This document shows positions 1-20,008 of a DNA stretch of 64,000 nucleotides, one piece after another. The stretch's first letter is position 1. Each line of letters opens with the position of its first letter. Position numbers and translations under genes: made by a program. The DNA comes from Myxococcaceae bacterium JPH2 (GTDB taxonomy: Bacteria > Myxococcota > Myxococcia > Myxococcales > Myxococcaceae), in the NCBI GenBank assembly GCA_016458225.1, contig JAEMGR010000009.1, positions 434,001 through 498,000 of the forward strand, given 5' to 3'. The notes beneath the pieces are model-generated. The model made no database searches. It saw only the letters and a program-made list of their open reading frames with translations, and was not told where the DNA came from.

Positions 1-3000
1 TGGGCCTGGGTGACCGGGACGGCTTCCAGCTTCGGACCGCCAACACGGACCGGTTTGGCCAGACACACGTACGCTTCCAGCAGACGTTCTCCGGCGTGCC
101 GGTCTGGGGTGGCGACGCCATCGTCCACCTCGATGTCGACAATGGGGAGCAGCCCGCGACGACGCACCTGTATCCGGGAGTCCGCATGCCGGACGTGCGC
201 CCCGCGCTGCAGGCCAGCGAGGCGCTCACGGTCGCGGAGCAGGACGAGGGAACGGCGGCCCATGGCGCGTACTCGGTCGCGCCGCAGTCCGAGCTCGTCA
301 TCTACCCGGTGACGCAGGAGCAGATCCTCACGCCGGAGAAGTCCCGGGAGCAGCTCAACGCGGTGGACGTCACGCGCCAGGTGACGCGCTACGCGCTCGC
401 GTGGCACATCCACACGGAGCTGTCGAACAAGCAGGACGGTGTCCGCCACACGGACTACATCGTCGACTCCCAGTCCGGTGAGGTGCTGCGCCGCTGGAAC
501 GCGCTGCAGACGGCCGCCGCGGTGGGCACGGGCAACTCGCAGTACAGCGGCACGGTGGCCCTGCAGACGAACCAGCTTCCGGACGGGACGTTCGAGCTGC
601 GCGACACCACGCGCGGCAGCACGGGCAACATCACGTACTCGGCCGAGCACGGCGATGCCGACCTCGGCCCCGTCACGCTCATTCCTTACACCGACGCGGA
701 CAACACCTGGGGCAACGGGCAGCAGTACATCGAGGGCAACCCCACGATGGACATCACCGGCCAGACGGCCGCCGTCGATGCCCACTTCGGACTCCAGACG
801 ACGTGGGACTTCTACAAGAACGTCATGAGCCGTCACGGCATCGATGACAGGGGCACGGCCACCTTCAACCGCGTCCACTACAAGACCGCCTACGACAACG
901 CGTTCTGGAGCAATGGCTGCTTCTGCATGACCTACGGCGATGGCGCGGGCTTCACGACCCTGACTGCCATTGACGTGTCGGCGCACGAGATGAGCCACGG
1001 CGTCATGGCCAACACGGCGGCCCTCATCTACGCCGAGGAGTCCGGCGGTCTGAACGAGGCCAACTCCGACATCATGGGAACGATGGTGGAGTTCTACCTG
1101 CGCGGCAAGAACGCCACGGGCTCCGTCATCGGCGATACGGGCGGCAACTGGTCCATCGGCGAGCAGCTCGACTCCGAGCCCCTGCGGTACATGTTCAAGC
1201 CCAGCAAGGACGGGCTGAGCCCTGATGCGTGGACGCCGGACCTCTACAAGGTCGACGTGCACTACAGCAGCGGCCCGATGAACCGCGCGTTCTACTTCCT
1301 CTCCGTGGGCGCGACGACCACGGGCGAAACGTCCACGCCTTACCTGCCGCAGGGCATGGGCGGCATCGGCAACGACAAGGCCGCGGCCATCTGGTACCGC
1401 GCCATCACCACGTACCTCTTCCCCGCCTCCAACTACGTGGCGGCGCGCACCGCCTGCCTCCAGTCGGCTCGGGACCTGTTCGGCTCCGACTCCGCGGAGT
1501 TCCGCGCGGTGCAGAACGCCTTCGCGGGCATCAACGTGGGCTACACCGCTGGAACGTATGACGACCGCGTCCCGCCCCAGGTCGCGGCGTCGGTGGTCGG
1601 CAACGCGGGCACCCTCCGCCTGGAGGCCACCGCCTCCGACAACGTCGGCGTCACGCGCGTGCAGTTCGTCGTGGACGGCGTCATCGCGGGCGAGAGCGTG
1701 AGCCTGCCGTTCTTCACGATGTTCAACTCGCAGAGCCTGGCCAACGGCGTTCACCAGCTCCAGGCCATCGCGCAGGATGCCGCGGGCAACCGGACGACCT
1801 CCGCCTCGGTGGCGTTCATGGTCTCCAACCAGACGGAGCAACTCCTCATCAACCCGGGCTTCGAGCTGGGTGACTTCGGGTGGGATCACACCGACGCGGT
1901 CCTCAACTATCCCGTGAGCAGCGGCTCGCACCGAGGCTCGGGCTACATCTGGCTGGATGGCTACGGCACCGCGCACACGGACAACCTGTCGCAGCTCGTC
2001 ACCATCCCGGCGGGGACCACGTCCGCCTCGCTGTCCTTCTGGCTGAGCCTGACCACCGCCGAGACGACGACGACCGCCGTCAATGACTACATCACCATCT
2101 CGGTGCGCGACCCCCAGGGCAACGTGCTGCAGACGCTCGCCACGTACTCCAACCTCGACGCGGACCTCGACTATGTCCAGCGCAGCTACGACCTGACCGC
2201 GTACGCGGGACAGACCATCCGCATCTTCCTGGAGGCCGTGGAGAACAGCTCGCGCGCGTCCAACTTCAAGCTGGATGACTTCGCGCTGCGCGTGTCGTCC
2301 ACGCCGGATGTGACCGCGCCCACTGTCAATGCCTATGTCCAGCAGGCGGGCAACGCCGTGGGCCTCTACGCGGACGTGTCCGACGACAGCGCGCTCAGCA
2401 GCGTGAAGTTCCTCGTCGACGGGACCGAGGTGGCCTCGAAGGCGTCGTCCTACAGCGCGATCATCCCCACCAGCAGCCTGACGAACGGAAGCCACACGCT
2501 CGTGGTCACCGCCACGGACGTCGCGGGCCACACGGCGTCCTCCACGCCGGTCAGCTTCTTCATCGATCGCACGACCACCCAGCTCCTGCTGAACCCGGGC
2601 TTCGAGACGGTTCCCAATCCGGCGGCGGCCTGGACGTTCACCAGCGTTCCCAGCTCCACGTCCATCAACAACGTCGGGACCAGCTCTCCGCGCTCCGGCT
2701 TGCGGCTGGCCATCTTCAACGGCGCGGGTGTCCCCAACACGGGAACCATGCGGCAGACGGTGACGGTGCCGGCCGCTGCCACGTCCGCCGTCCTGACGTT
2801 CTGGACCCGCATCCTGAGCACGGCCTTCGCCGACGGGCAGGTGCACGACACGTTCACGTTCCAGATTCGCGACAGCTCGGGCAACGTGCTGGCCACCCCG
2901 GCCGTCTACTCGAACCTGGATGACACCGCGGGTGTCTATGTGATGCGCACGTTCAACCTGAGCGCATACAAGGGCCAGACCCTCCAGTTGTTCTTCACCG

Positions 3001-4049
3001 CCGTGCAGACCGCGCCGGTCGTCCCGGGAGGCTTCACGCGCGTGCGCGTGGATGACTTCTCGCTGGCGGTCTCCACCGCGCAGGACACCAACCCGCCCCG
3101 CGCCAGCGTCGCGGTCAAGGGGACCTACGGCAACATCTCCATCACCGCCGGCGCCACGGACAATGTCTGGGTCTCCCAGGTGGATGTGTATGTGGATGGC
3201 ACGCTCGTGCGCTCCCAGCAGAACCCTCCGGGCCCGTTCACGGTCGCGTACGACACGCGTGGCCTCACGAATGGCGACCACACGGTCGAGGTGCGCGCCA
3301 CGGACGTGGCGGGCAACGTCGGCACGGCCAGCCAGACCTTCGGCATCTACAACAGCACCATCCAGGACACGCAGGACCCGACGGTCACCGGGAGCGTCAG
3401 CGGCACCCACGGCGTGGTGACCCTCGCCGCCACCGCGTCCGATGACACGGGCGTCACCGAGGTGGAGTTCTACGTCGACAACCTCTACCGAGGTCGCTCC
3501 GTCACCGCCCCCTACGTGGTGCCGTTCGACCTGAGCACCGTGGCCTACGGCACGCACACGCTCACGGTCCGCGCGTACGACGCCTATGGCCATGAGGCCG
3601 TGCACTCGGTCGCGTTCGAGCGCGTCCCGGTGTCCGTCGCCGTCGCCCCCGCCTCGGCGATCGTTCGCTGGGGTGAGACGGTCAACTTCGGCGCGACCGT
3701 GCTCAACACCGAGACCAACTCGGCCGCCACCTGGTCGCTGCAGGAGGGCCCCGCGGCCGGCAGCATCAGCGCCACGGGCGTCTACACCGCGCCCAGCGCC
3801 ACGGGCACCTTCCACGTCGTGGCCACCAGCGTGGAGGACCCGACCCGGAGCGCGAGCGCGACGGTGCGCGTCTACACGGGTGACATCAACGCGGACGGAC
3901 TCGTCGATGGCGAGGACATGGGCGTGCTCGCCCAGGCCCTCGGCGCACACAACGGCGACGCCCACTACGCCCCCGCGGCCGACCTCGATGGCAACGGCCT
4001 CGTGGACGACAACGACATCACTCTCTTCATCGCCGAGTTTGGACGGTAA
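1..4049 (+). CDS. Secreted M4 family (thermolysin-like) metalloprotease with Ig-like, jelly-roll and dockerin-like modules; 5' partial
   Basis: The reading frame is open from base 3, so the start and signal peptide lie outside the window. The first codons (HVRFQQTFSGVPVWGGD) match an FTP propeptide domain. The catalytic part carries HEMSH (His codon at base 984), the third zinc ligand Glu in GGLNEANSD (base 1056) and the active-site His of VHYSSGPMNRAFY (base 1260), all as in the M4 family. After it come an Ig-like domain, two jelly-roll-like domains each opening with LLxNPGFE, further Ig-like domains, and one repeat (about 3625-3880) of the same type as those in the next gene. The C-terminus (about 3880-4045) has two calcium loops, DINADGLVDGED and DLDGNGLVDDND, spaced as in a type I dockerin. 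It is probably an exported protease for predation or nutrient release. The next gene begins 6 bases after the stop, which suggests co-transcription. The family call is firm; the dockerin partner is unknown. Confidence 0.93.
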   Translation, partial: GLGDRDGFQLRTANTDRFGQTHVRFQQTFSGVPVWGGDAIVHLDVDNGEQPATTHLYPGVRMPDVRPALQASEALTVAEQDEGTAAHGAYSVAPQSELVIYPVTQEQILTPEKSREQLNAVDVTRQVTRYALAWHIHTELSNKQDGVRHTDYIVDSQSGEVLRRWNALQTAAAVGTGNSQYSGTVALQTNQLPDGTFELRDTTRGSTGNITYSAEHGDADLGPVTLIPYTDADNTWGNGQQYIEGNPTMDITGQTAAVDAHFGLQTTWDFYKNVMSRHGIDDRGTATFNRVHYKTAYDNAFWSNGCFCMTYGDGAGFTTLTAIDVSAHEMSHGVMANTAALIYAEESGGLNEANSDIMGTMVEFYLRGKNATGSVIGDTGGNWSIGEQLDSEPLRYMFKPSKDGLSPDAWTPDLYKVDVHYSSGPMNRAFYFLSVGATTTGETSTPYLPQGMGGIGNDKAAAIWYRAITTYLFPASNYVAARTACLQSARDLFGSDSAEFRAVQNAFAGINVGYTAGTYDDRVPPQVAASVVGNAGTLRLEATASDNVGVTRVQFVVDGVIAGESVSLPFFTMFNSQSLANGVHQLQAIAQDAAGNRTTSASVAFMVSNQTEQLLINPGFELGDFGWDHTDAVLNYPVSSGSHRGSGYIWLDGYGTAHTDNLSQLVTIPAGTTSASLSFWLSLTTAETTTTAVNDYITISVRDPQGNVLQTLATYSNLDADLDYVQRSYDLTAYAGQTIRIFLEAVENSSRASNFKLDDFALRVSSTPDVTAPTVNAYVQQAGNAVGLYADVSDDSALSSVKFLVDGTEVASKASSYSAIIPTSSLTNGSHTLVVTATDVAGHTASSTPVSFFIDRTTTQLLLNPGFETVPNPAAAWTFTSVPSSTSINNVGTSSPRSGLRLAIFNGAGVPNTGTMRQTVTVPAAATSAVLTFWTRILSTAFADGQVHDTFTFQIRDSSGNVLATPAVYSNLDDTAGVYVMRTFNLSAYKGQTLQLFFTAVQTAPVVPGGFTRVRVDDFSLAVSTAQDTNPPRASVAVKGTYGNISITAGATDNVWVSQVDVYVDGTLVRSQQNPPGPFTVAYDTRGLTNGDHTVEVRATDVAGNVGTASQTFGIYNSTIQDTQDPTVTGSVSGTHGVVTLAATASDDTGVTEVEFYVDNLYRGRSVTAPYVVPFDLSTVAYGTHTLTVRAYDAYGHEAVHSVAFERVPVSVAVAPASAIVRWGETVNFGATVLNTETNSAATWSLQEGPAAGSISATGVYTAPSATGTFHVVATSVEDPTRSASATVRVYTGDINADGLVDGEDMGVLAQALGAHNGDAHYAPAADLDGNGLVDDNDITLFIAEFGR

Positions 4050-4055
4050 TCACCC

Positions 4056-7000
4056 ATGAACCTGCTGAAGAAGATCATCGTCCCCGTCCTGCTCGTCGGC
4101 CTGATGGCCGCCTGCTCGGACGACGTCAAACCCCAGACAGACACGGGCCAGGTCACCATCACGCCCGACAAGGCCACCGTGAAGGCTGGCGAGCAGGCCA
4201 CCTTCACCGCCACCGTCGAGGGCAAGTCGGACGGACAAGTCCGATGGAGCCTGCCGCAAGGCACCCAGGCGGGCACCGTCACCAGCGACGGCGTCTACAC
4301 CGCGTCCGAGACCCCGGGCACCTACTCCCTGCTGGCCACCAACGTCGCGGACACCTCCAAGACGAGCCGCGCCACCATCACCGTGGTGCCCAGCATCTCG
4401 GTGTCCGTGAAGTCTGATACCGCGGTCATCTACACCGGCAGCACCACCCTGTTCACCGCGACGGTCCAGGCCAAGGGGACCACCAACCTCGGCGTCACCT
4501 GGAGCGTCCTGGAAGGCGACGCGGGTGGGACCTTCACCAGCGCGGGCCGCTACAAGGCGCCCACCACGCCGGGCACGTACCACGTCGTTGCCACCAGCAT
4601 GGTGGACGCGAGCGTGAAGGCCGTGGTCGCCGTCGAGGTCGTCGCCGTCAAGGTGACCGTCACGCCGGACGGCGTGACGCTGGACCAGGGCGCCGCGACC
4701 ATCCTGAGCGCCACGCTCCTGGGACCCGCGGGCACCTCCGTCACGTGGAGCGTGCAGGAGGGCGCCGCGGGCGGCACCGTCACCCCGAGCGGCGTCTACT
4801 CCGCGCCCAACAAGGCCGGCACGTACCACGTCATCGCCACCAGCACGGCGGACACGACGAAGGCGGGCTCGGCCACCATCACCGTGCGCCCCATCACGCT
4901 GGCGCTCGACAAGACCGAGGCCACCGTCTCCACCGCCGCGAGCACTCCCTTCCGCGCGATCTTCACGGGCACGGTGAACACGGGCGTGACGTGGAGCATC
5001 CAGGAAGGCGCCGCGGGCGGCACCATCAGCAGCGCGGGCGTCTACACGGCTCCCACCTCGGGCGGCACGTTCCACGTCGTCGCCACCAGCAAGGCGGACA
5101 GCACCGTGACCGCCACGGCCACGGTCACCGTCACGCCCGTCGCCGTCACGGTGACGCCTGACACCGCCACGCTCGATCAGGGCGCGAGCACCCCGCTCCA
5201 GGCCCAGGTCACTGGGACGGCCAACACCTCCGTCATCTGGAGCATCCAGGAGGGCGCAGCCGGAGGCGCTGTCACCGCGGACGGCGTCTACACCGCGCCC
5301 AAGAAGGCTGGCACGTACCACGTCGTCGCCACGAGTGCGGCGGATCACTCCAAGGCGGGCTCGGCCACCCTCACCGTCCGGCCCGTCACCGTGACGCTCT
5401 CGGACGCGGCGCCGACGCTCTCCACCGCGAGCACGTTCCAGTTCATCGCCACGGTCGCCGGCACGGTGACCCCAGGCGTGACGTGGAAGGTCCAGGAAGG
5501 CGCCGCGGGAGGCGCCATCTCCAGCGCCGGTGTCTACAAGGCGCCCACCGCTGCGGGCACGTACCACGTCGTCGCCACCAGCGTGGCGGACACCACCGTC
5601 AGCGCCACGGCGACCGTCACGGTCATCGCCGTTTCCGTCGCGGTGGCCCCCAACACCACCACCCTGGATCAGGGCGCCCACGCCACGTTCCAGGCCCACG
5701 TCACCGGGACCAGCGACACCTCCGTCACCTGGAGCATCGAAGAGGGAGCCAGCGGCGGCACGCTCAGCGCCGCGGGTGAGTACGTCGCGCCCAACAAGGC
5801 CGGCACGTTCCACATCGTCGCGACCAGCACGGTGGACGACTCCAAGTCGGGTACCGCGACCATCACGGTCCGGCCCGTCACCGTGACGCTCTCCGACACG
5901 ACGGCCACCGTCTCCACGGCGGGCACGTTCCACTTCTCCGCCACCGTCGCCGGCTCGGTGAACCATGGCGTGACGTGGACCGTTCAGGAGGGCGCGAGCG
6001 GCGGCACCATCACCACCGACGGCGACTACACCGCGCCCCTCACGGGTGGCACGTACCACGTCATCGCCACCAGCGTGGCCGATGCCACGGTGAGCGACAC
6101 GGCCACCATCACCGTCAAGCAGGTCGCCGTCAGCGTGGCGCCGACCTCCGCGACGGTGGACCAGGGCGAGGTGAAGACGTTCACCGCCGACGTGACGGGC
6201 TCGTCCAACCTCGCCGTCAACTGGACCGTCCAGGAGGGCGCCGCGGGCGGCTCCATCACCTCCACGGGTGCGTACACCGCGCCCAACACGGCTGGCACCT
6301 ACCACGTCGTGGCGACGAGCCAGGCGGATGGTTCGAAGTCGGATACCGCCACCGTCACCGTGCGCGCGGTGGCCCTGGCGTTGGATCGCACCGAGGTGAA
6401 CGTCATCACCTCCGGCACCTACCACTTCAACGCCACGGTCACCGGCACGGTGAACACGGGCGTGACGTGGACCGTCCAGGAGGGCGCGAGCGGTGGCTCC
6501 ATCACCACCGCGGGCGTCTACAGCGCCCCGGCCACGAACGGCACGTACCACGTCATCGCCACCAGCGTGGCGGATGTCGCGATCAAGGCCGTTGCCACCG
6601 TCACGGTCTCCACCGTCGCGGTCATGGTGAATCCTGCCGCCATCACCCTGAACCAGGGTGATGCGACGACGTTCACCGCGGATGTGACGGGCACGTCCAA
6701 CACCGGCGTCACGTGGACCGTCCAGGAGGGCGCGTCCGGCGGATCCATCACCAGCGCCGGCGCATACACCGCCCCCACCCACGCGGGCACCTACCACGTC
6801 ATCGCCACCAGCGTGGCGGACCCGACCCACTCGGGCTCGGCCACCGTCGTCGTGCGCCCCATCGTCGTCACGCTCTCGGACGCCGCCCCCACCGTGGCGG
6901 CAGCCGGGACGTTCCACTTCGGCGCCACCGTCACGGGCACGGACAACACGGGCGTGACGTGGAGCGTGCAGGAGGGCGCCGCGGGCGGCTCCATCACCGC

Positions 7001-10000
7001 ATCCGGTGACTACACCGCGCCGAACAAGGGCGGCACGTATCACGTCATCGCGACCTCGCAGGCGAACACGTCGAGCACCGCCGTCGCGACGGTCACCGTC
7101 ACCTCGGTCGAGGTCGCGGTGTCTCCCGCCACCACCACCCTGGACCAGGGCGCGACCGTTCCGTTCCAGGCGAATGTGACGGGGGCGGCCGTCAACACCG
7201 TCACCTGGACCATCCTGGAGGGCGCCAGCGGCGGCACCATCACCGCAGCGGGTGCGTACACCGCGCCCGCCAAGGCGGGCACGTACCACGTGGTCGCCAC
7301 CAGCACGGTGGACACGTCGGTGTCCAGCTCGGCCACGGTCACCGTTCATGCGGTCACCGTGACGCTGGCGGACACGACGGTGGCGCTGTCCTCGGGCGGC
7401 GCGTTCCACTTCTCCGCCTCGGTCACCGGCACGGTGACCCCTGGCGTGACGTGGAGCGTTCAGGAGGGCACGAGCGGCGGCACCATCACCGCCAGCGGTG
7501 ACTACACCGCGCCGCCTACGGGTGGCACGTATCACGTCACCGCCACCAGCGTGGGCGATGCCACGGTGAGCGCCACCGCCACCGTCACCGTCACCCAGGT
7601 CGCGGTCAGCGTGGCCCCCAACACCGCCACCCTGGAGCAGGCCGAGGCGAAGACGTTCACGGCCACCGTGACGGGCACGTCCAACTCCGCCGTCACCTGG
7701 ACCATCCAGGAGGGCGCGAGCGGCGGCACCATCACCGCGGACGGCATCTACACCGCGCCCAACAAGGCCGGCACGTACCACGTCGTGGCGACGAGCAATG
7801 CGGATGTCTCCAAGTCCGACACGGCCACCGTCACCGTGGGCAGTGTCACCGTGACGCTCGCGGACACGACCGCGGCGCTGTCCACGGCGGGCACGTTCCA
7901 CTTCGCCGCCACGGTCACCGGCACGAAGACCCCGGGCGTGAACTGGTCCGTTCAGGAAGGCGCCGCGGGCGGCACCATCACCGCCAATGGCGACTACACC
8001 GCCCCCGCCGCGGGCGGCACGTTCCACGTCATCGCCACCTCGAAGGGCGACGCGACGGCCAAGGCCACCGCCACCGTCACCGTCACCCTGGTGGTCGTGG
8101 CTGTCACCCCGACTGAGGTCACCCTGGATCAGGGTGACACCAAGGCGTTCCAGGCGAGCGTGACGGGCACGTCCAACATCGGCGTCACCTGGAGCATCAA
8201 GGAGAACACCGGTCCGGTGGGCAGCGTCACCTCGGATGGCGTCTACACCGCGCCCTTCAAGAGCGGCACGTTCCACGTCGTCGCGAAGAGCAATGCGGAT
8301 GGCTCGAAGACGGGCGTCGTCACCGTTACCGTGCGTCCCGTCGTCGTGACGCTCGCGAACAACGCCCCTACCGTCTCCACCGGGGGCAGCTTCGCCTTCG
8401 GCGCCACGGTCACCGGCACGACGGCGAGCCATGACGTGACGTGGAGCGTCCAGGAGGGCTCGCGCGGCGGCACCATCACCGCCGCGGGTGTCTACTCGGC
8501 TCCGCTCTCGGGTGGCACCTTCCACGTGACCGCCACCAGCGTGGCGAACACGGCGTCCAAGGCCTACGCCACGGTCACGGTCACCCCGGTCGCGGTGACG
8601 GTGTCCCCCGCGACGGCGACGTTGGATCAGGGCGCGTCCCAGCGCCTCACGGCCACGGTCACCGGCACGACGAACGAGAACGTCACCTGGTCGATCCAGG
8701 AAGGCGCCGCGGGCGGAGACCTCACCTCCGATGGCGTCTACACCGCTCCAGCCCACGCCGGCACGTACCACGTCGTCGCGACCAGCGCGGCGGATGGCTC
8801 GAAGAAGGGCACGGCCACGCTCACCGTGAGCCCGGTCACCGTGGCGCTCGCGAATCCGTCGACCACCGTCGCGGCCGCGGGCAGCTTCCACTTCTCCGCC
8901 ACGGTCGCCGGCACGGTGACCTCGGGCGTGACGTGGAGCATCGAGGAAGGCGCCGCGGGCGGCTCCATCACCTCGGATGGCGACTACACCGCGCCCGCCG
9001 TCGGTGGCACCTACCATGTCATCGCCACCAGCGTGGCGGATGCCACGGCCAAGGCCACCGCCACGGTCACCGTCACGCCGGTCACGGTCGCGGTGTCTCC
9101 GAACTCGGTCGCGGTGAACCAGGGTGAGACGAAGACGTTCGTGGCCCACGTGACGGGCACGTCCACCACCTCCGTCACCTGGACCGTCGAGGAGGGCGCC
9201 GCGGGTGGCGCCATCACCAGCGCGGGCGTCTACACCGCGCCGAACACCGCGGGCACGTACCACGTCGTCGCCACCAGCACGGTGGATGCGTCCAAGTCGA
9301 GCTCGGCCACCATCACCGTGCGTCCCGTCACCGTGACGCTCGATCCCACGAACGCGGCCCTCGCGTTCGGAGGCAGCCAGCACTTCACGGCCACCGTCAC
9401 CGGCACGGCGACGACGGGCGTGACGTGGAGCATCCAGGAGGGCGCCGCGGGCGGCTCCATCACCGCCTCCGGTGACTACTCCGCGCCGAGCACGGCGGGC
9501 ACGTACCACGTCGTCGCCACCAGCGTGGCCGACGCCTCGGCCAAGGCCACGGCCACCGTCTCCGTCTCCTCGGTCAGCCTGGCCCTGTCGCCCACCTCGG
9601 TGGATGTCACCCCGGGCGGCCAGTTCACGTTCACCGCGGTGGTGACGGGCTCGGCCAACACGGCCGTCACCTGGAGCACCTCCGCGGGCAGCATCACCCA
9701 GGCTGGCGTCTACACGGCTCCGTCCGAGTTCGGCACCGCGACGGTGACGGCCACGTCCGAGGCGGATCCCTCCGTCAAGGCCACGGCCATCGTCACCATC
9801 CGCGCGGCGAGCGGCCTCGTCTACACGGATCCGAGCGGCCTCGGATGGAAGCTCGTCCGCAACGCCACCGAGTCCACGCCGACGCACCTCGTGCTCGACC
9901 TCGTCGGGCCCGTGGGCGAGCTGGGCCGCGGCGTCGCGCTGACGCTCTCCGCGCCTCCGGCGCTCACGACGTGGGCTCACGTCGCGACGTCAGACACGGA

Positions 10001-10283
10001 GTTCGTCACGAACCGCGCCTTCGCGCTCGGTGGCATGCCCCAGCTCCTCAAGGGGACGGTGGCAGGCAACGCGCTGCGCCTGGGTGTCTTCCAGAAGGGA
10101 ACGAGCGCTCCGGCGGTCGTCTACGCCGACGCGCTCGTCTCCGTGGCGCTGGAGCTGAACACCGCGCAGGCCATCCCCGCCGGGACGGTCATCACGCTCG
10201 CCGTGGACAAGGCCCATGCCCTGCCCGGCGTCGACACCCTGGGCCCCATCACGGTGGCCGTGGGTGAGCTGAAGGCTCAGTAG
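4056..10283 (+). CDS. Giant lipoprotein with 23 tandem Ig-like (BIG2-type) repeats and a C-terminal beta-rich domain
   Basis: This 2075-residue protein begins with a lipoprotein signal (MNLLKKIIVP..., lipobox-like LMAAC, Cys20), so it should be lipid-anchored in the envelope. About 23 units of roughly 82 residues follow, each with a core like VTWSVQEGAAGG and an end like GTYHVVATS. They alternate between a form with TLDQGA near its start and a form with TVSTAGTFHF, so the true period is two domains. The last 160 residues differ: they are Gly/Ala/Leu/Val-rich, predicted mostly beta, and end with LVSVALELNTAQAIPAGTVI and VAVGELKAQ, which loosely resembles the end of a cohesin fold. The upstream protease carries one copy of the same repeat and a dockerin-like end. 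Likely role (inference): a long surface stalk or scaffold. No catalytic motif is visible. The start is the first ATG after the protease stop. Confidence 0.88.
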   Translation: MNLLKKIIVPVLLVGLMAACSDDVKPQTDTGQVTITPDKATVKAGEQATFTATVEGKSDGQVRWSLPQGTQAGTVTSDGVYTASETPGTYSLLATNVADTSKTSRATITVVPSISVSVKSDTAVIYTGSTTLFTATVQAKGTTNLGVTWSVLEGDAGGTFTSAGRYKAPTTPGTYHVVATSMVDASVKAVVAVEVVAVKVTVTPDGVTLDQGAATILSATLLGPAGTSVTWSVQEGAAGGTVTPSGVYSAPNKAGTYHVIATSTADTTKAGSATITVRPITLALDKTEATVSTAASTPFRAIFTGTVNTGVTWSIQEGAAGGTISSAGVYTAPTSGGTFHVVATSKADSTVTATATVTVTPVAVTVTPDTATLDQGASTPLQAQVTGTANTSVIWSIQEGAAGGAVTADGVYTAPKKAGTYHVVATSAADHSKAGSATLTVRPVTVTLSDAAPTLSTASTFQFIATVAGTVTPGVTWKVQEGAAGGAISSAGVYKAPTAAGTYHVVATSVADTTVSATATVTVIAVSVAVAPNTTTLDQGAHATFQAHVTGTSDTSVTWSIEEGASGGTLSAAGEYVAPNKAGTFHIVATSTVDDSKSGTATITVRPVTVTLSDTTATVSTAGTFHFSATVAGSVNHGVTWTVQEGASGGTITTDGDYTAPLTGGTYHVIATSVADATVSDTATITVKQVAVSVAPTSATVDQGEVKTFTADVTGSSNLAVNWTVQEGAAGGSITSTGAYTAPNTAGTYHVVATSQADGSKSDTATVTVRAVALALDRTEVNVITSGTYHFNATVTGTVNTGVTWTVQEGASGGSITTAGVYSAPATNGTYHVIATSVADVAIKAVATVTVSTVAVMVNPAAITLNQGDATTFTADVTGTSNTGVTWTVQEGASGGSITSAGAYTAPTHAGTYHVIATSVADPTHSGSATVVVRPIVVTLSDAAPTVAAAGTFHFGATVTGTDNTGVTWSVQEGAAGGSITASGDYTAPNKGGTYHVIATSQANTSSTAVATVTVTSVEVAVSPATTTLDQGATVPFQANVTGAAVNTVTWTILEGASGGTITAAGAYTAPAKAGTYHVVATSTVDTSVSSSATVTVHAVTVTLADTTVALSSGGAFHFSASVTGTVTPGVTWSVQEGTSGGTITASGDYTAPPTGGTYHVTATSVGDATVSATATVTVTQVAVSVAPNTATLEQAEAKTFTATVTGTSNSAVTWTIQEGASGGTITADGIYTAPNKAGTYHVVATSNADVSKSDTATVTVGSVTVTLADTTAALSTAGTFHFAATVTGTKTPGVNWSVQEGAAGGTITANGDYTAPAAGGTFHVIATSKGDATAKATATVTVTLVVVAVTPTEVTLDQGDTKAFQASVTGTSNIGVTWSIKENTGPVGSVTSDGVYTAPFKSGTFHVVAKSNADGSKTGVVTVTVRPVVVTLANNAPTVSTGGSFAFGATVTGTTASHDVTWSVQEGSRGGTITAAGVYSAPLSGGTFHVTATSVANTASKAYATVTVTPVAVTVSPATATLDQGASQRLTATVTGTTNENVTWSIQEGAAGGDLTSDGVYTAPAHAGTYHVVATSAADGSKKGTATLTVSPVTVALANPSTTVAAAGSFHFSATVAGTVTSGVTWSIEEGAAGGSITSDGDYTAPAVGGTYHVIATSVADATAKATATVTVTPVTVAVSPNSVAVNQGETKTFVAHVTGTSTTSVTWTVEEGAAGGAITSAGVYTAPNTAGTYHVVATSTVDASKSSSATITVRPVTVTLDPTNAALAFGGSQHFTATVTGTATTGVTWSIQEGAAGGSITASGDYSAPSTAGTYHVVATSVADASAKATATVSVSSVSLALSPTSVDVTPGGQFTFTAVVTGSANTAVTWSTSAGSITQAGVYTAPSEFGTATVTATSEADPSVKATAIVTIRAASGLVYTDPSGLGWKLVRNATESTPTHLVLDLVGPVGELGRGVALTLSAPPALTTWAHVATSDTEFVTNRAFALGGMPQLLKGTVAGNALRLGVFQKGTSAPAVVYADALVSVALELNTAQAIPAGTVITLAVDKAHALPGVDTLGPITVAVGELKAQ
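4150..9810 (+). repeat. Tandem Ig-like domain repeats, about 23 units of about 246 bp in two alternating types
   Basis: Read from the protein, the units alternate A-B-A-B through nearly the whole gene. A units carry the TLDQGA-type opening. B units carry the TVSTAGTFHF-type opening, and FHF is frequent in them. Unit 17 has a changed core (SIKENTGPVGS in place of IQEGAAGG) and unit 23 is shortened (WSTSAGSITQ). Similarity is high enough at DNA level to allow recombination between units, so copy number may vary between strains. Confidence 0.9.
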
Positions 10284-10299: not shown

Positions 10300-10332
10300 A
10301 CGCCCGCGGGTGCAGTCGTCACCCGCGGGCGT
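10300..10332. terminator. Hairpin between convergent genes (13-bp perfect stem)
   Basis: ACGCCCGCGGGTG (10300-10312) pairs perfectly with CACCCGCGGGCGT (10320-10332) around a 7-base loop. It lies between the stop of the repeat lipoprotein and the stop of the ABC ATPase, so it can serve both strands. There is no clear T-run on either side. Confidence 0.6.
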
Positions 10333-10336
10333 CGCG

Positions 10337-15488: not shown

Positions 15489-16660
15489 CGCTTCTCCGCC
15501 GAGGCCAGCACCGCGTCCACCGGGCCGCCATCCGTCACGTCACTGCCCGCGTTGAGGGCGACCACTTCACCGCCCTGAAGCCCGCTGACGATCTGCGCGA
15601 CCTTGCCGTCGTGTCGCCCCACCACCACCGGCACCACCCGCGCGCGCCCGTCCTGCACGACCGCGACGAACGGCTTGTCGGCGCGCATGAAGAGGGCCTC
15701 GGCGGGCACCATCGGATAGGGGCGAGCCTGCAGGTGGAGCGTGGCGTGGATGAAGCTGCCCGGGTACAGGCCCACGTCCTTGTTGTCGATGTCCACCTCG
15801 CACAGCATGGTGCGCGTGCGCGCATCCAGGTTGCGCGTCATGCGCGTCACCTTCGCCTCGAGCGTCTGTCCCGGGCGCTGATCCACCGACAGCGTGACCG
15901 CGTCGCCCTCGTGCACGGAGTCCGCGTCGTCCTGGCCCAGGTAGACGTAGACGCGCAGCTTGTCCATGTCCGCCAGGTCCAGCACCGGCTGGGCGCTCGT
16001 CGTCGAGCCCGTGGCGGCCGGAAGCAGCGCGCCCGTGTCCACGTAGCGCGCGGTGACGATTCCCTCGAATGGCGCGGTCAGCGTCCCATAGGCCTGGAGC
16101 GACTGGGCTCGCGCGAGGTTCGCCTCGGAGATCTTCACCCCCGCCTGCGCATCATCCACCTGCTGCTGGGAGCTGACGCCCGTCGAGACCAGCGACAGGT
16201 GCCGTTGCAGGAGCTGTCGCTTCACGTCCAGGTCCGCTCGCGCGGCGGCCACCTGCTGCTCGGTGTCGGGAGACTCGAGCGTGGCCAGCAGCTGGCCCTT
16301 CTTCACGCGGTCGCCCTTGTCCACGCGGATGTCGCGCAGGTAGCCGCTGACCTTGGCGTAGAGCGTGGCCTGAGCCCAGGCGCGGGCCTCGGCGGGCAGC
16401 GTGACGTCGCGGCCCGATGCGGCCAGGGTGACCTGGACGGCGCGCAGGCGAGGGCCGGCGGCCACGGCGGCGCGGCGAGACTCCGCCTCGCGGGCCTCGG
16501 CGTGGCTGCGCGTCGTGGCCAGGAACGCCACGCCACCGATGGCGACGCTGACGCTCACCACGCCCACCGCGAACAGGCCGCGCGCGGAGGGAGGTCGAGA
16601 GGGAGCAGGAGGCACCGGCTCAGGCGAGGGAGGGATGACGGGCACGGGAGCGGAACTCAT
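15485..16660 (-). CDS. RND efflux periplasmic adaptor (membrane fusion protein)
   Basis: This 391-residue protein has an N-terminal membrane anchor (GLFAVGVVSVSVAIGGVAFLA) after a Pro-rich cytosolic start, then the biotinyl-lipoyl-like half-motifs around GYLRDIRVDKGDRVKKGQLL and APFEGIVTARYVDTGALLP, a coiled-coil hairpin between them, and a C-terminal beta-barrel. This is the HlyD/AcrA architecture. It bridges the inner-membrane pump and the TolC-like duct. Both gene junctions overlap by four bases (ATGA with the pump stop, GTGA with the next gene), which fits equimolar expression. Confidence 0.93.
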   Translation of the reverse strand: MSSAPVPVIPPSPEPVPPAPSRPPSARGLFAVGVVSVSVAIGGVAFLATTRSHAEAREAESRRAAVAAGPRLRAVQVTLAASGRDVTLPAEARAWAQATLYAKVSGYLRDIRVDKGDRVKKGQLLATLESPDTEQQVAAARADLDVKRQLLQRHLSLVSTGVSSQQQVDDAQAGVKISEANLARAQSLQAYGTLTAPFEGIVTARYVDTGALLPAATGSTTSAQPVLDLADMDKLRVYVYLGQDDADSVHEGDAVTLSVDQRPGQTLEAKVTRMTRNLDARTRTMLCEVDIDNKDVGLYPGSFIHATLHLQARPYPMVPAEALFMRADKPFVAVVQDGRARVVPVVVGRHDGKVAQIVSGLQGGEVVALNAGSDVTDGGPVDAVLASAEKR

Positions 16661-19600
16661 GCGGAGTGACCTGGAGAGGAAGAAGGAAGGAGCGCGGCCT
16701 CGGCCTCGAAGCGCTTGTCCAACTCGTGCTGGCGAGGCGGCGCCTTGCGCAGGAGCGAGTAGACGACCGGGACCATGAACAGGGTGACGAAGGTGGCCAC
16801 CGAGAGACCACCGATGACAGCTCGGCCCAGCGGCGCGTTCTGCTCACCCCCCTCGCCCAACGCCAACGCCATGGGCAGCATGCCGAGCACCATGGCGAGC
16901 GCCGTCATGAGGATGGGACGCAGTCGCGTACGCCCCGCCTCCAGCGCGGCCTCCAGCGCGCTGATGCCGCGCTCGCCGCGCACATCGTTGGCGAAGTTGA
17001 CCAGGAGGATGGAGTTACTGACCGCGATGCCCACGGCCATGATGGAGCCCATGAAGGACTCCACGTTGAGCGTGGTGCCTGTCACGGCCAGCATCCAGAG
17101 GATGCCCACCAGCGCGCCGGGCACCGCGACCATGATGATGAACGGATCCAGCCAGCTCTGGAACAGCACGACCATGAGCAGATAGACGAGCACGATGGCC
17201 AGGAGGAGCCCGGTGCCCAGGCTCTTGAACGAGGTGAACATGCTCTCGCTCTGGCCTCGGATGGTGATGCGCGTCGTCTTGGGCACGTCCTTCAGGCCGC
17301 TGATGGCCTTCTGGATGTCGCGGGTGACGCTGCCCAGGTCCCGGCCCTCGGCGGAGGCCTGCACGTTGATGACGCGCTGAACGGTGGCGTGGTTGATGAG
17401 GGCCTTGTCCTGCGTGGCCCGCATCGAGGCGATGCTCCCCAGATAGAGCGTGGTGCTGGAGCTCGCGTCCCCCACCCCGCGGCTCGGAGTCTGTCGAAGC
17501 GGCGCCGTGCCCCCCGCCACGGGCGTGGTCATCAGGTCGTTGACGCTCTGCATCTGCACGAGCGGCGTCTGCACCACGACGGGGTAGTTCACGTTGTTCT
17601 GCGGGCTCAACCAGAAGGACGGCGACACCGTGGAGCTGGACGACAGCGTGGTGAGCAGGTTGTTGGCCACATCGCGCTGGGTGATGCCGACCTGGGCGGC
17701 GCGCACGCGGTCCGTCACCACCTGGATGGCGGGATGGTCCAACACCTGGGCGATGCGCACGTCCGCGGTACCCGGGATCTCGCGCATGCGGTCGCGCAGC
17801 TCGCGCGCCAGCAGGAAGGACTTGTCCAGGTCGCTGCCTTCAATCTGCACGTCGATGGGCGCCGACAGGCCGAAGTTGAGCACCTGGCTGACGATGTCCG
17901 GCGCCTGGAAGTAGGCGCTCACGCCGGGGAAGTCCTTCGCCAGCATCTCGCGGATGGCCTGCATGTACAGGCGCGTGGGGTGGTGATGCGCCTTCAGCGC
18001 GATGAGCACCTCCGCGTCCTGGCTCCCGATGTTGTCCGTGGGGACGAGCGCCAGGTTGAAGGAGATGGGCAGGCCCAGGTTGTCGTTGATGGTCTCCAGC
18101 TCATCCTCCGGGATGAGGTCCCGGATGCGCTGCTCCACCGCGTCGACGATCTCTTCGGTCGTCTCCAGCCGCGTGCCGATGGGCGCGCGCACGTGCAGGC
18201 GCATCTGGCCGGCATCCACCGAGGGGAAGAAGTCGAAGCCCACGACGAACGGCAGGACCGCGGTGGCGCCCACCAAGAGCGCCGCGCACCCGAGGACGAA
18301 GCCCCGATGTGCCAGCACCATGGACAGGGCCCGGCCATACACGTCCGTGAAGCGATCGAAGTGACGGTCGCGCCAGGCATTGAAGCGGCCCCAGATGCCC
18401 CGGGCGGCCTCGGGCCCATGGGCCTCGTGCTCCAGGAGCTGGCGCGCCAGCGTGGGCACCAAGGTCCGGCTGAGCACGTAGCTGGCGAGCATCGAGATGA
18501 CCACCGACAGCGCCAGCGGCGTGAAGAGGAAGCGCGCGGGCCCCACCAGCAGCACCACCGGGAAGAACACGATGCAGATGGTCAGGGTGGCCGCCAGCGC
18601 GGGCGTGGCGATCTGCTCGGCGCCGATGAGGATGGCGGGCGTCAGCGGCATCCCCAGCGTGCGGTGCCGGTGGATGTTCTCCACGGCCACCGTCGCGTCA
18701 TCCACGAGCATCCCGATGGCGAGCGCCAGTCCGCCCAGCGTCATGATGTTGAACGTGTGGCCCAAGAGGAACAGGCCCGTCACGCCCACGGCCATGGCCA
18801 GCGGGATGGACGTGGACACCAGCAACATGCTGCGCCAGCTCCCCAGGAACAGGAGGATCATCACCGACACCAGCACCGAGCTGATGAGCGCCTCATGCAG
18901 CACGTTCATCACGGCGGCGCGCACGAACACGGACTGATCGAAGTCGATCTTCAGCTCCATGCCCTCGGGCGCCGCCGCCTTGAGCTGGGGCAGCAGCTCT
19001 CGCGAGGCGTCCACCACCGCCAGAGTGGAGGCGTTGGCGTGCTTGAGCAGCGACAGGTAGGTGGCGCGCTTGCCGTTGACCCGCGCGATGTTGGTCTGCA
19101 CGGCGAAGCCGTCATGCACGAACCCCACGTCGCGCAGATATACGGGCGCGCCGTCCACCACCTTCACGGGCAGGGCGTTGAACTCATCGACGGTGGTGGG
19201 GCTGGAGTTGAGCTTGACGTTGTACTCGGTGTTGCCGATCTGCGCGGTGCCCGCGGGCACGAGCACGTTGGACTGGAGCAGCGCCTGCACCACGTCCTGC
19301 GGCGTGAGCCCCTTGGCCGCCACCTTCGCCGGATCCACGTCCACCATGATCTGCCGGGCCTTGCCACCATACGGTGACGGAATGGACATGCCCGGGATGG
19401 TGAACAGCTTGATGCGCAGGAAGTTCAGGCCGTAGTCATAGAGCTGCTGCTCGGACAGGTTCTGGCTGGAGACGGTGAGCTGGGCCACCGGCACGTTGGA
19501 CGCGTTGTAGCGGATGACGTTGGGCGGGCTGATGCCAGGGGGCATGAGCCGGCTGGCCGTCTGCGACACGCTGGCGATCTGCGCGATGGCCGCGCCGATG

Positions 19601-19902
19601 TCCGCGTCCTGCTCGAAGTAGACCTTGAGGATGCCGATGCCGGAGATCGACTGCGAGTCGATGTGGCTGATGCCATCCACCGTCGTCGAGTAGGCGCGCT
19701 CGCTGATGAGCACCACGCGTCGCTCGATGTCCTCGGCGGACATGCCCGGATAACTCCAGACCACCATGACGACCGGGATGTCGATGGCAGGAAAGATGTC
19801 CACCTTCATCCGGGCCGCGGACATCACTCCCGCCAGGAGGATGAGCGCGGACATCACGGCAATGGTGTAGGGGCGCCGTAGCGCCAGCCGCACGATCCAC
19901 AC
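16657..19902 (-). CDS. RND family efflux transporter permease
   Basis: The pump is about 1081 residues and belongs to the AcrB/CusA superfamily. It opens with WIVRLALRRPYTIAVM and shows the duplicated RND plan: a transmembrane helix, a large periplasmic porter domain, a helix bundle, then a second copy. The TM4 proton-relay aspartates are present in GMLVDDATVAVENI. The matching TM10 position reads VGIAVSNSILLVNFA, without the Lys found in AcrB. The GTG at 19902 is preferred because it places the first helix normally and has GGGAG upstream; a GTG at 19932 is also in frame. Substrates cannot be predicted. It lies downstream of, and co-oriented with, a LysR gene. Confidence 0.93.
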   Translation of the reverse strand: MWIVRLALRRPYTIAVMSALILLAGVMSAARMKVDIFPAIDIPVVMVVWSYPGMSAEDIERRVVLISERAYSTTVDGISHIDSQSISGIGILKVYFEQDADIGAAIAQIASVSQTASRLMPPGISPPNVIRYNASNVPVAQLTVSSQNLSEQQLYDYGLNFLRIKLFTIPGMSIPSPYGGKARQIMVDVDPAKVAAKGLTPQDVVQALLQSNVLVPAGTAQIGNTEYNVKLNSSPTTVDEFNALPVKVVDGAPVYLRDVGFVHDGFAVQTNIARVNGKRATYLSLLKHANASTLAVVDASRELLPQLKAAAPEGMELKIDFDQSVFVRAAVMNVLHEALISSVLVSVMILLFLGSWRSMLLVSTSIPLAMAVGVTGLFLLGHTFNIMTLGGLALAIGMLVDDATVAVENIHRHRTLGMPLTPAILIGAEQIATPALAATLTICIVFFPVVLLVGPARFLFTPLALSVVISMLASYVLSRTLVPTLARQLLEHEAHGPEAARGIWGRFNAWRDRHFDRFTDVYGRALSMVLAHRGFVLGCAALLVGATAVLPFVVGFDFFPSVDAGQMRLHVRAPIGTRLETTEEIVDAVEQRIRDLIPEDELETINDNLGLPISFNLALVPTDNIGSQDAEVLIALKAHHHPTRLYMQAIREMLAKDFPGVSAYFQAPDIVSQVLNFGLSAPIDVQIEGSDLDKSFLLARELRDRMREIPGTADVRIAQVLDHPAIQVVTDRVRAAQVGITQRDVANNLLTTLSSSSTVSPSFWLSPQNNVNYPVVVQTPLVQMQSVNDLMTTPVAGGTAPLRQTPSRGVGDASSSTTLYLGSIASMRATQDKALINHATVQRVINVQASAEGRDLGSVTRDIQKAISGLKDVPKTTRITIRGQSESMFTSFKSLGTGLLLAIVLVYLLMVVLFQSWLDPFIIMVAVPGALVGILWMLAVTGTTLNVESFMGSIMAVGIAVSNSILLVNFANDVRGERGISALEAALEAGRTRLRPILMTALAMVLGMLPMALALGEGGEQNAPLGRAVIGGLSVATFVTLFMVPVVYSLLRKAPPRQHELDKRFEAEAALLPSSSPGHSA

Positions 19903-20008
19903 GGAATGGCAACTCCCGGGAGCGCCTGTCACGCCTCGGTGTCACCACCGCGCGCGAAACGCTCCCTGTTGAATGCCGTGCTAAATGCGCTCCGAGTCCG
20001 TCCGCGTC

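Follow-up and report, generated by a model that had tools for sequence, protein, structure and literature searches.

What could be the role of a predicted bacterial lipoprotein that carries a stalk of 23 immunoglobulin (Ig)-like domains, and why does its gene directly follow that of a secreted protease? These questions are raised by a locus of the Myxococcaceae bacterium JPH2 (assembly GCA_016458225.1, contig JAEMGR010000009.1, positions 434,001 to 498,000), and the whole 64,000-nucleotide stretch analysed is referred to here as the window. The initial annotation, made from the sequence alone, had described 23 Ig-like repeats that alternate strictly between two types and had attributed the array to doubling of a two-domain unit. 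Here, we analyzed the array together with both ends of the protein, the neighbouring gene and their relatives in other genomes. Our results suggest that the product is probably a lipoprotein-anchored tether of variable length, with a single cohesin-like domain, which would keep its own dockerin-bearing protease at the cell surface.

A dockerin protease and a predicted lipoprotein with a cohesin-like tip

The upstream gene (3..4049; all features of the two-gene cassette are on the + strand) starts 181 nt before the window and encodes a protein of about 1409 amino acids, whose N-terminus resembles a Sec signal by eye. It was identified as a secreted M4 (thermolysin-like) metalloprotease with Big_7 and MAM-like domains on the basis of Pfam matches to FTP, Big_7, M4 (133.5 bits) and M4_C (141.1 bits), the last two being over their cut-offs, and its HExxH motif is HEMSH. 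The C-terminal end (3858..4046) is a type I dockerin with two Ca-binding loops. It matched PF00404 with 28.8 bits in the genome scan and 28.3 bits when the tail was searched (cut-off 22.9), although a scan of the full-length protein gave 21.5 bits, which is below the cut-off. Residues D9, N11, D13, D17 and D20 were invariant in all 23 aligned Myxococcaceae dockerins. Loop positions 10 and 11, whose role is taken from cellulosomal dockerins, were Gly-Glu in 23 of 23 Myxococcaceae and, by eye, Leu-Arg in 9 of the 14 loci titled Geothrix, a difference that would be expected if specificity is maintained separately in each clade.

The ATG of the second gene (4056..10283, 2075 amino acids) lies 6 nt past the protease stop. 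Judged by eye, its product begins with a lipoprotein-type signal (4056..4115), in which a hydrophobic stretch is followed by a lipobox-type sequence ending in Cys20 (LMAAC here, LAAC or LVAC in many relatives). At the other end, behind the Ig-like array, is a domain of 153 residues (9822..10280) that had no match in Pfam or NCBIfam. A cohesin was guessed from the adjoining dockerin before any fold search was made. The AlphaFold2 model of the domain, built from 52 sequences, had a predicted local distance difference test score (pLDDT) of 93.6 and a predicted template modelling score (pTM) of 0.89. Cohesins or cohesin-bearing entries occupied Foldseek ranks 1-37 (best E 2.4e-5), counting 2o4e, which is titled only as a protein-protein interaction module. 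They also filled rows 1-47 of the VIA-align 2 list (best Z 12.4, with 137 residues aligned at 3.1 Å over model residues 6-153), in which the first non-cohesin fold had a Z of 8.6. Thus, in the model, the C-terminal domain looks like a cohesin beta-sandwich over its whole length. A search of the domain against Protein Data Bank sequences gave farnesyl diphosphate synthase as the best match (E 0.66), which was taken as chance. In the JPH2 genome, the single PF00404 match, the single match to a profile of Myxococcaceae dockerins and the single match to the C-terminal domain are adjacent.

Co-occurrence of the two genes in Myxococcaceae

The distribution of the two partners was examined in 96 genomes of the family, and matches were considered strong at E < 1e-30 for the C-terminal domain and E < 1e-20 for the dockerin. 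By these thresholds, 23 genomes had both, one (G051) had the domain only, none had the dockerin only and 72 had neither. Carriage was patchy inside genera (6 of 16 genomes in g5, 8 of 27 in g19 and 3 of 6 in g3), yet the two partners remained paired. The order, protease-dockerin gene and then lipoprotein gene, was the same in all 23 paired genomes, with a gap of 3-6 nt in the 22 relatives and 6 nt here. G051 contains four copies of the domain with M4 genes nearby; one M4 tail (L104) passed the dockerin hidden Markov model (HMM) at 1.2e-4, and another tail, on L108, failed (0.0032).

Two other groups of open reading frames (ORFs) were noted in these genomes. Weak matches to the domain profile were observed in long ORFs (940-2161 amino acids) of G001, G039, G053, G056, G063, G067, G068, G073 and G079, which are possibly further cohesin-like domains in other proteins. 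In addition, short ORFs of about 335-350 amino acids with a PF00404 match, which may encode dockerin-like proteins, were present in genomes with and without the cassette (for example, G003, G017, G033 and G059).

Relatives outside Myxococcaceae

An alignment-based search recovered relatives of the C-terminal domain at 61 loci, which by record title are from Myxococcus, Pyxidicoccus, Corallococcus, Citreicoccus inhibens, Geothrix and other Holophagaceae, other Acidobacteria, and a few metagenome-assembled genomes of Proteobacteria or Betaproteobacteria. A single-sequence scan of genome contigs had yielded no relatives, and no domain match was found in the plasmid collection. At 45 of 51 loci, the tail encoded by the upstream gene was matched by an HMM trained only on the 23 Myxococcaceae dockerins. 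Of 1,184 other ORF tails from these loci, 2 were matched, and both were also acidic and EF-hand-like. The 51 loci include the two of G051 (L104 and L108), which are Myxococcaceae but outside the training set, whereas L078, at a contig end, was left out. Pfam Dockerin_1 was matched by 37 of 61 upstream tails at E up to 0.05.

The class of the upstream enzyme varied while the pairing with a dockerin persisted. Of the 60 upstream proteins, 18 were scanned, and they comprised seven M4 proteases, seven Vps10/BNR-like proteins (three of them below the Pfam cut-off), two papain-like proteins, one NPCBM protein and one SpoIIE protein. In Geothrix and relatives, the lipoprotein often consisted, by eye, of a lipobox, a Gly-rich linker and the cohesin-like domain, and some had one more small domain. 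It should also be noted that several contigs (those of G051, that is, L056/L104 and L057/L108, and L100, L102, L107, L109 and L117) had at least two ORFs whose tails are divergent, acidic and EF-hand-like. This suggests that such contigs carry tandem protease and lipoprotein cassettes, with tails that are mostly not called dockerins by Pfam.

Organization and growth of the Ig-like array

The array extends from 4143 to 9806, and the 23 repeats first described from the sequence alone were all recovered, each with one conserved Trp. Pfam matches to I-set (131.7 bits, cut-off 23.7) and Big_2 (32.9 bits, cut-off 22.8) identified the units as Ig-like; cupredoxin, DIX and VEGFR matches on the array were taken as cross-matches. 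The initial annotation had also suggested that a strict pair period may set a regular angle along the stalk. A model of four units had a pLDDT of 93.9 but a pTM of 0.69, and its Foldseek list was led by nuclear pore entries and included Ig proteins, cell adhesion molecules, invasin, LigA and an RTX adhesin. Unit 1 (4143..4397) and unit 2 (4398..4643) are followed by units 3-22 (4644..9569), which form ten A-B pairs of 82-residue units, except that units 17 and 18 have 83 residues each, and by unit 23 (9570..9806), which is shortened, as had been noted. The divergent core of unit 17 (8088..8336, A type) was also found as described, with ENTGPVG in place of EGAAGG. The spacing from Trp to Trp was 82 residues in 20 of 22 intervals, the others being 85, between units 1 and 2, and 84, between units 17 and 18. 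In the MAFFT alignment, the latter is accounted for by two additional residues, of which one lies within the core of unit 17 and the other precedes the Trp of unit 18. The longest exact repeat in the array DNA was only 35-39 bp, so collapse of the array in a short-read assembly is unlikely. On the opposite strand, an ORF of 1976 amino acids (4050-9980, - strand) mirrors the array and was taken as an artefact of high-GC codon usage.

Several analyses supported two alternating unit types. Tandem Repeats Finder scored a 492-bp period far above a 246-bp period (3647 vs 1010). The mean amino acid identity between units at lags 1 to 6 was 0.51, 0.605, 0.49, 0.58, 0.49 and 0.605, and even lags exceeded the adjoining odd lags all the way to lag 18. 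When units 1, 2, 17 and 23 were dropped, identity among the remaining 19 units was 0.606 within types and 0.506 between types, a difference reached in none of 20,000 label shuffles. Since this count had the first part of unit 18 shifted by one residue, we also removed that unit; the values for 18 units were 0.626 and 0.519, and 1 of 20,000 shuffles reached the difference. Trees of HMM-delimited units, built for this protein only and jointly with 7 of the 22 relatives, separated the ten A units (3-21) from the ten B units (4-22). Both types were monophyletic in the joint tree (support 92 for A and 85 for B), and nested edges in the own-only tree had supports of 58-96. The claim of two types thus passed the check that could have overturned it, namely a tree without separate A and B clades. 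The alternation, said to run strictly through almost the whole protein, held for units 2-22 and did not extend to its ends: unit 1 grouped with the first units of relatives in the joint tree (and on the A side in the own-only tree), and unit 23 fell, like unit 2, on the B side of the joint tree despite its odd number.

The number of Ig units varied from 1 to 23 over the 23 genomes. Besides the 23 units of this protein, there were 11 units in three genomes, 9 in one, 6 in three, 5 in nine, 4 in two, 3 in three and a single unit in one. G014, of the same genus as JPH2, has 5 units vs 23 here.

With regard to the proposed doubling of a two-domain unit, growth in blocks of two or multiples of two is favoured by the higher identity at even lags, by the separation into two clades and by the closest DNA matches among units. 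These matches (units 8 and 14, 0.846; units 9 and 15, 0.817) indicate copying of a B-A block. Which pair is the copied unit could be addressed only weakly. Similarities among A units followed those of the preceding B units in a Mantel test in which unit 18 was misregistered (r 0.57, p 0.005, n 8); the correlation decreased on removal of unit 18 (r 0.41, p 0.053, n 7), and we downgraded this result. For the following B units, r was 0.09 (p 0.35-0.36, n 9). Possibly, the A and B types diverged before this lineage arose, because the A units of JPH2 sit with DQGA-type units of other genera, on an edge whose support is 65 only.

We also compared fourfold codons for the same residue within and between types, using 300 shuffles. 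The synonymous difference between types was 0.209 at residues 1-33 (0/300 shuffles; 0.21 and 0/300 without unit 18) and 0.109 at residues 67-82 (1/300; 0.098 and 0/300 without unit 18), as compared with 0.021 at residues 34-66 (17/300; 0.013 and 52/300 without unit 18). It seems that the unit core has been exchanged across types and that the part around the inter-domain junction remains type-specific. Such a pattern raises the possibility that array length and A-B alternation arose neutrally, as a side effect of unequal recombination and gene conversion. The wide range of unit numbers, even within one genus, speaks for this explanation, and so does the sharing of synonymous third bases in the core, which is about as frequent between A and B units as within types. 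On the other hand, 18 of the 20 units from 3 to 22 keep a length of 82 residues with the frame open, and type identity is kept on both sides of the junction despite the shared core. We consider neutral growth a serious possibility that falls somewhat short of even; it is compatible with a tether.

Proposed tether and alternative explanations

The proposal that the lipoprotein tethers the protease starts from the gene order, the dockerin, the modelled cohesin fold, the co-inheritance of the partners and the variable number of Ig units, all established here. The two genes would form an operon and be transcribed together, the first giving a secreted M4 metalloprotease with a terminal dockerin and the second a lipoprotein that would be exported to the outer face and anchored through its N-terminal Cys, with 23 Ig-like beads as a stalk and one cohesin-like domain at the distal tip. 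As adjacency and co-occurrence suggest, this tip would bind the dockerin of the co-expressed protease with Ca. The protease would thereby stay attached to the cell surface, and the number of Ig units would determine how far from it the enzyme is kept. An Ig domain is 3.5-4 nm long. A straight stalk of 23 domains would therefore measure about 80-90 nm, which is too long for the periplasm and argues for outward display. Surface display is an inference from three features: the partner's Sec signal, the lipobox and the length of the stalk.

Several observations weigh against this proposal. First, the co-occurrence was less clean under a relaxed threshold: at E up to 0.001, the domain was matched in 30 genomes and the dockerin in 24, that is, 23 genomes with both, seven with the domain only (G001, G039, G051, G056, G067, G073 and G079), one with the dockerin only (G030) and 65 with neither. 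Second, PF00404 matched in 29 of 96 genomes, non-carriers included, and detected the dockerin of the cassette in no more than 7 of the 23 carriers; divergent dockerins may accordingly be missed elsewhere, and absence by Pfam is weak evidence of absence. Third, six of the 51 upstream tails failed the dockerin HMM: L094 (a SpoIIE protein), L108 (a regulator chosen by the script), and L102, L107, L109 and L118 (divergent, with weak scores). Fourth, identity to the cohesins of the VIA-align 2 list was just 4-13%, and PF00963 (cohesin) matched none of 52 family members and nothing in the JPH2 genome, and for this reason the domain is named cohesin-like and treated as a divergent family; a common fold also says nothing on function. 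Finally, the lipobox and signal were judged by eye and the outer-face position is inferred. On balance, we regard the tether as the probable function of the lipoprotein.

Another explanation is that the protein is an adhesin, in which the Ig stalk presents a C-terminal beta-sandwich that binds prey, a neighbour cell or a polysaccharide, and the protease dockerin has another partner or is degenerate. Ig arrays commonly serve as adhesin stalks, adhesion entries appeared in the Foldseek list of the array model, and a staphylococcal adhesin domain (1amx) ranked 38 in that of the cohesin-like domain. However, an adhesin would leave unexplained both the dockerin gene directly upstream, a feature of 23 of the 24 strong carriers and, with varied enzymes, of 45 of 51 further loci, and the near-stalkless or stalkless lipoproteins of Geothrix and relatives; we therefore consider it unlikely. 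Less probable still is that the pair acts inside the envelope, with the lipoprotein as a foldase, inhibitor or escort of the protease for export or self-protection: the gap of 3-6 nt, the one-to-one pairing and the genome with a single Ig unit would fit a dedicated partner, but a stalk of 23 units far exceeds the length of the periplasm and the different classes of upstream enzyme make a class-specific foldase or inhibitor unlikely.

A divergent allele in opposite orientation

Comparison with G014 revealed that the cassette occupies the same chromosomal site in the two genomes, with flanking DNA that is 90-94% identical, and that it lies in opposite orientations relative to these flanks. The bounds of the cassette are about 5609 in L123 and about 10334 in the window, and 4220 and 10617 in L050. 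Homology with the G014 flank starts at window position 10334, just past a hairpin (10300..10332) that lies at the downstream edge of the cassette and was recognized by eye as a possible terminator. The G014 cassette is a divergent allele (55% identity in the C-terminal domain and 60% in the M4 region). Both the protease and the cohesin trees placed it among the cassettes of Myxococcus and Corallococcus, with low supports for its groups (38 and 33), and set the JPH2 cassette apart, a separation for which no support was printed. Such an inverted divergent allele would be explained if a transferred cassette had replaced an earlier one, and likewise if different members of an old pair had been lost. 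A stretch of about 50 bp past the lipoprotein stop in Myxococcus and Corallococcus was considered as a mobile element and dropped, because it was recognized by eye as an intrinsic terminator, a GC hairpin with T's behind it.

Comparison with known systems

Known cohesin-dockerin systems were compared using the titles of structure entries. As in the cellulosomal type I and II modules and the cohesin-like modules of Clostridium perfringens glycoside hydrolases, a dockerin with two Ca loops ends a secreted hydrolase and the partner has the cohesin fold. In contrast to them, the domain here is negative for PF00963, there is one cohesin per anchor protein, the partner is a metalloprotease and the anchor is a predicted lipoprotein. 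In cellulosomes, anchoring scaffoldins use a cohesin to capture partners that bear a dockerin at the cell to which they are attached. The protein described here is similar in having a cohesin-like domain on a protein that is predicted to be anchored, and it differs in its variable Ig spacer and in that no second cohesin, carbohydrate-binding module or glycoside hydrolase partner was found in the genome. Specifically, only one domain of this family and no PF00963 match were detected in the genome, and no carbohydrate-binding module was among the Pfam matches of the 2075-residue protein at E up to 1. Tandem Ig-like beads are shared with bacterial Big_2 and I-set stalk proteins, from which this protein differs by a cohesin-like tip beside a dockerin enzyme gene and by two alternating unit types. 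One paper describes noncellulosomal cohesin/dockerin proteins near Ig-like domains in syntrophic sulphate reducers and anaerobic methanotrophic archaea (PMC10553843), and another describes a cohesin domain followed by Ig-like domains in TMEM132 (PMC6030884); unlike the present pair, these are discussed there as adhesion proteins. Among the titles and opening lines of abstracts searched in the open-access literature, we recognized no publication describing the pair, although a 2009 review of noncellulosomal cohesins and dockerins may mention such proteins. The parts are known, and their combination (a divergent single cohesin, a lipoprotein anchor, a variable Ig spacer and an adjacent dockerin protease) was not met in the literature searched.

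Myxobacteria are known as predators. A tether of this kind would explain how a secreted hydrolase stays near the myxobacterial cell, and it gives an unannotated cohesin-like family a likely partner in the adjoining gene. Because natural variants combine one type of tip with 1, 3, 4, 5, 6, 9, 11 or 23 spacer domains, the effect of tether length is directly measurable, and the pair could serve as an orthogonal module for protein assembly. Taking all results together, we tentatively suggest, as a reading that is possible rather than probable, a portable two-gene tethering cassette (a dockerin-tagged hydrolase and a lipoprotein with one divergent cohesin) that would be distinct from cellulosomes and distributed across Myxococcota, Acidobacteriota and some Betaproteobacteria. 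In Myxococcaceae, its spacer would be an evolvable ruler of 1-23 beads that sets the distance of the protease, with alternating junctions and homogenized cores, and whole alleles would be swapped at one chromosomal site in either orientation. Elsewhere in the window, a gene for an AcrB/AcrD/AcrF-type efflux pump is located at 16657-19932 on the - strand.

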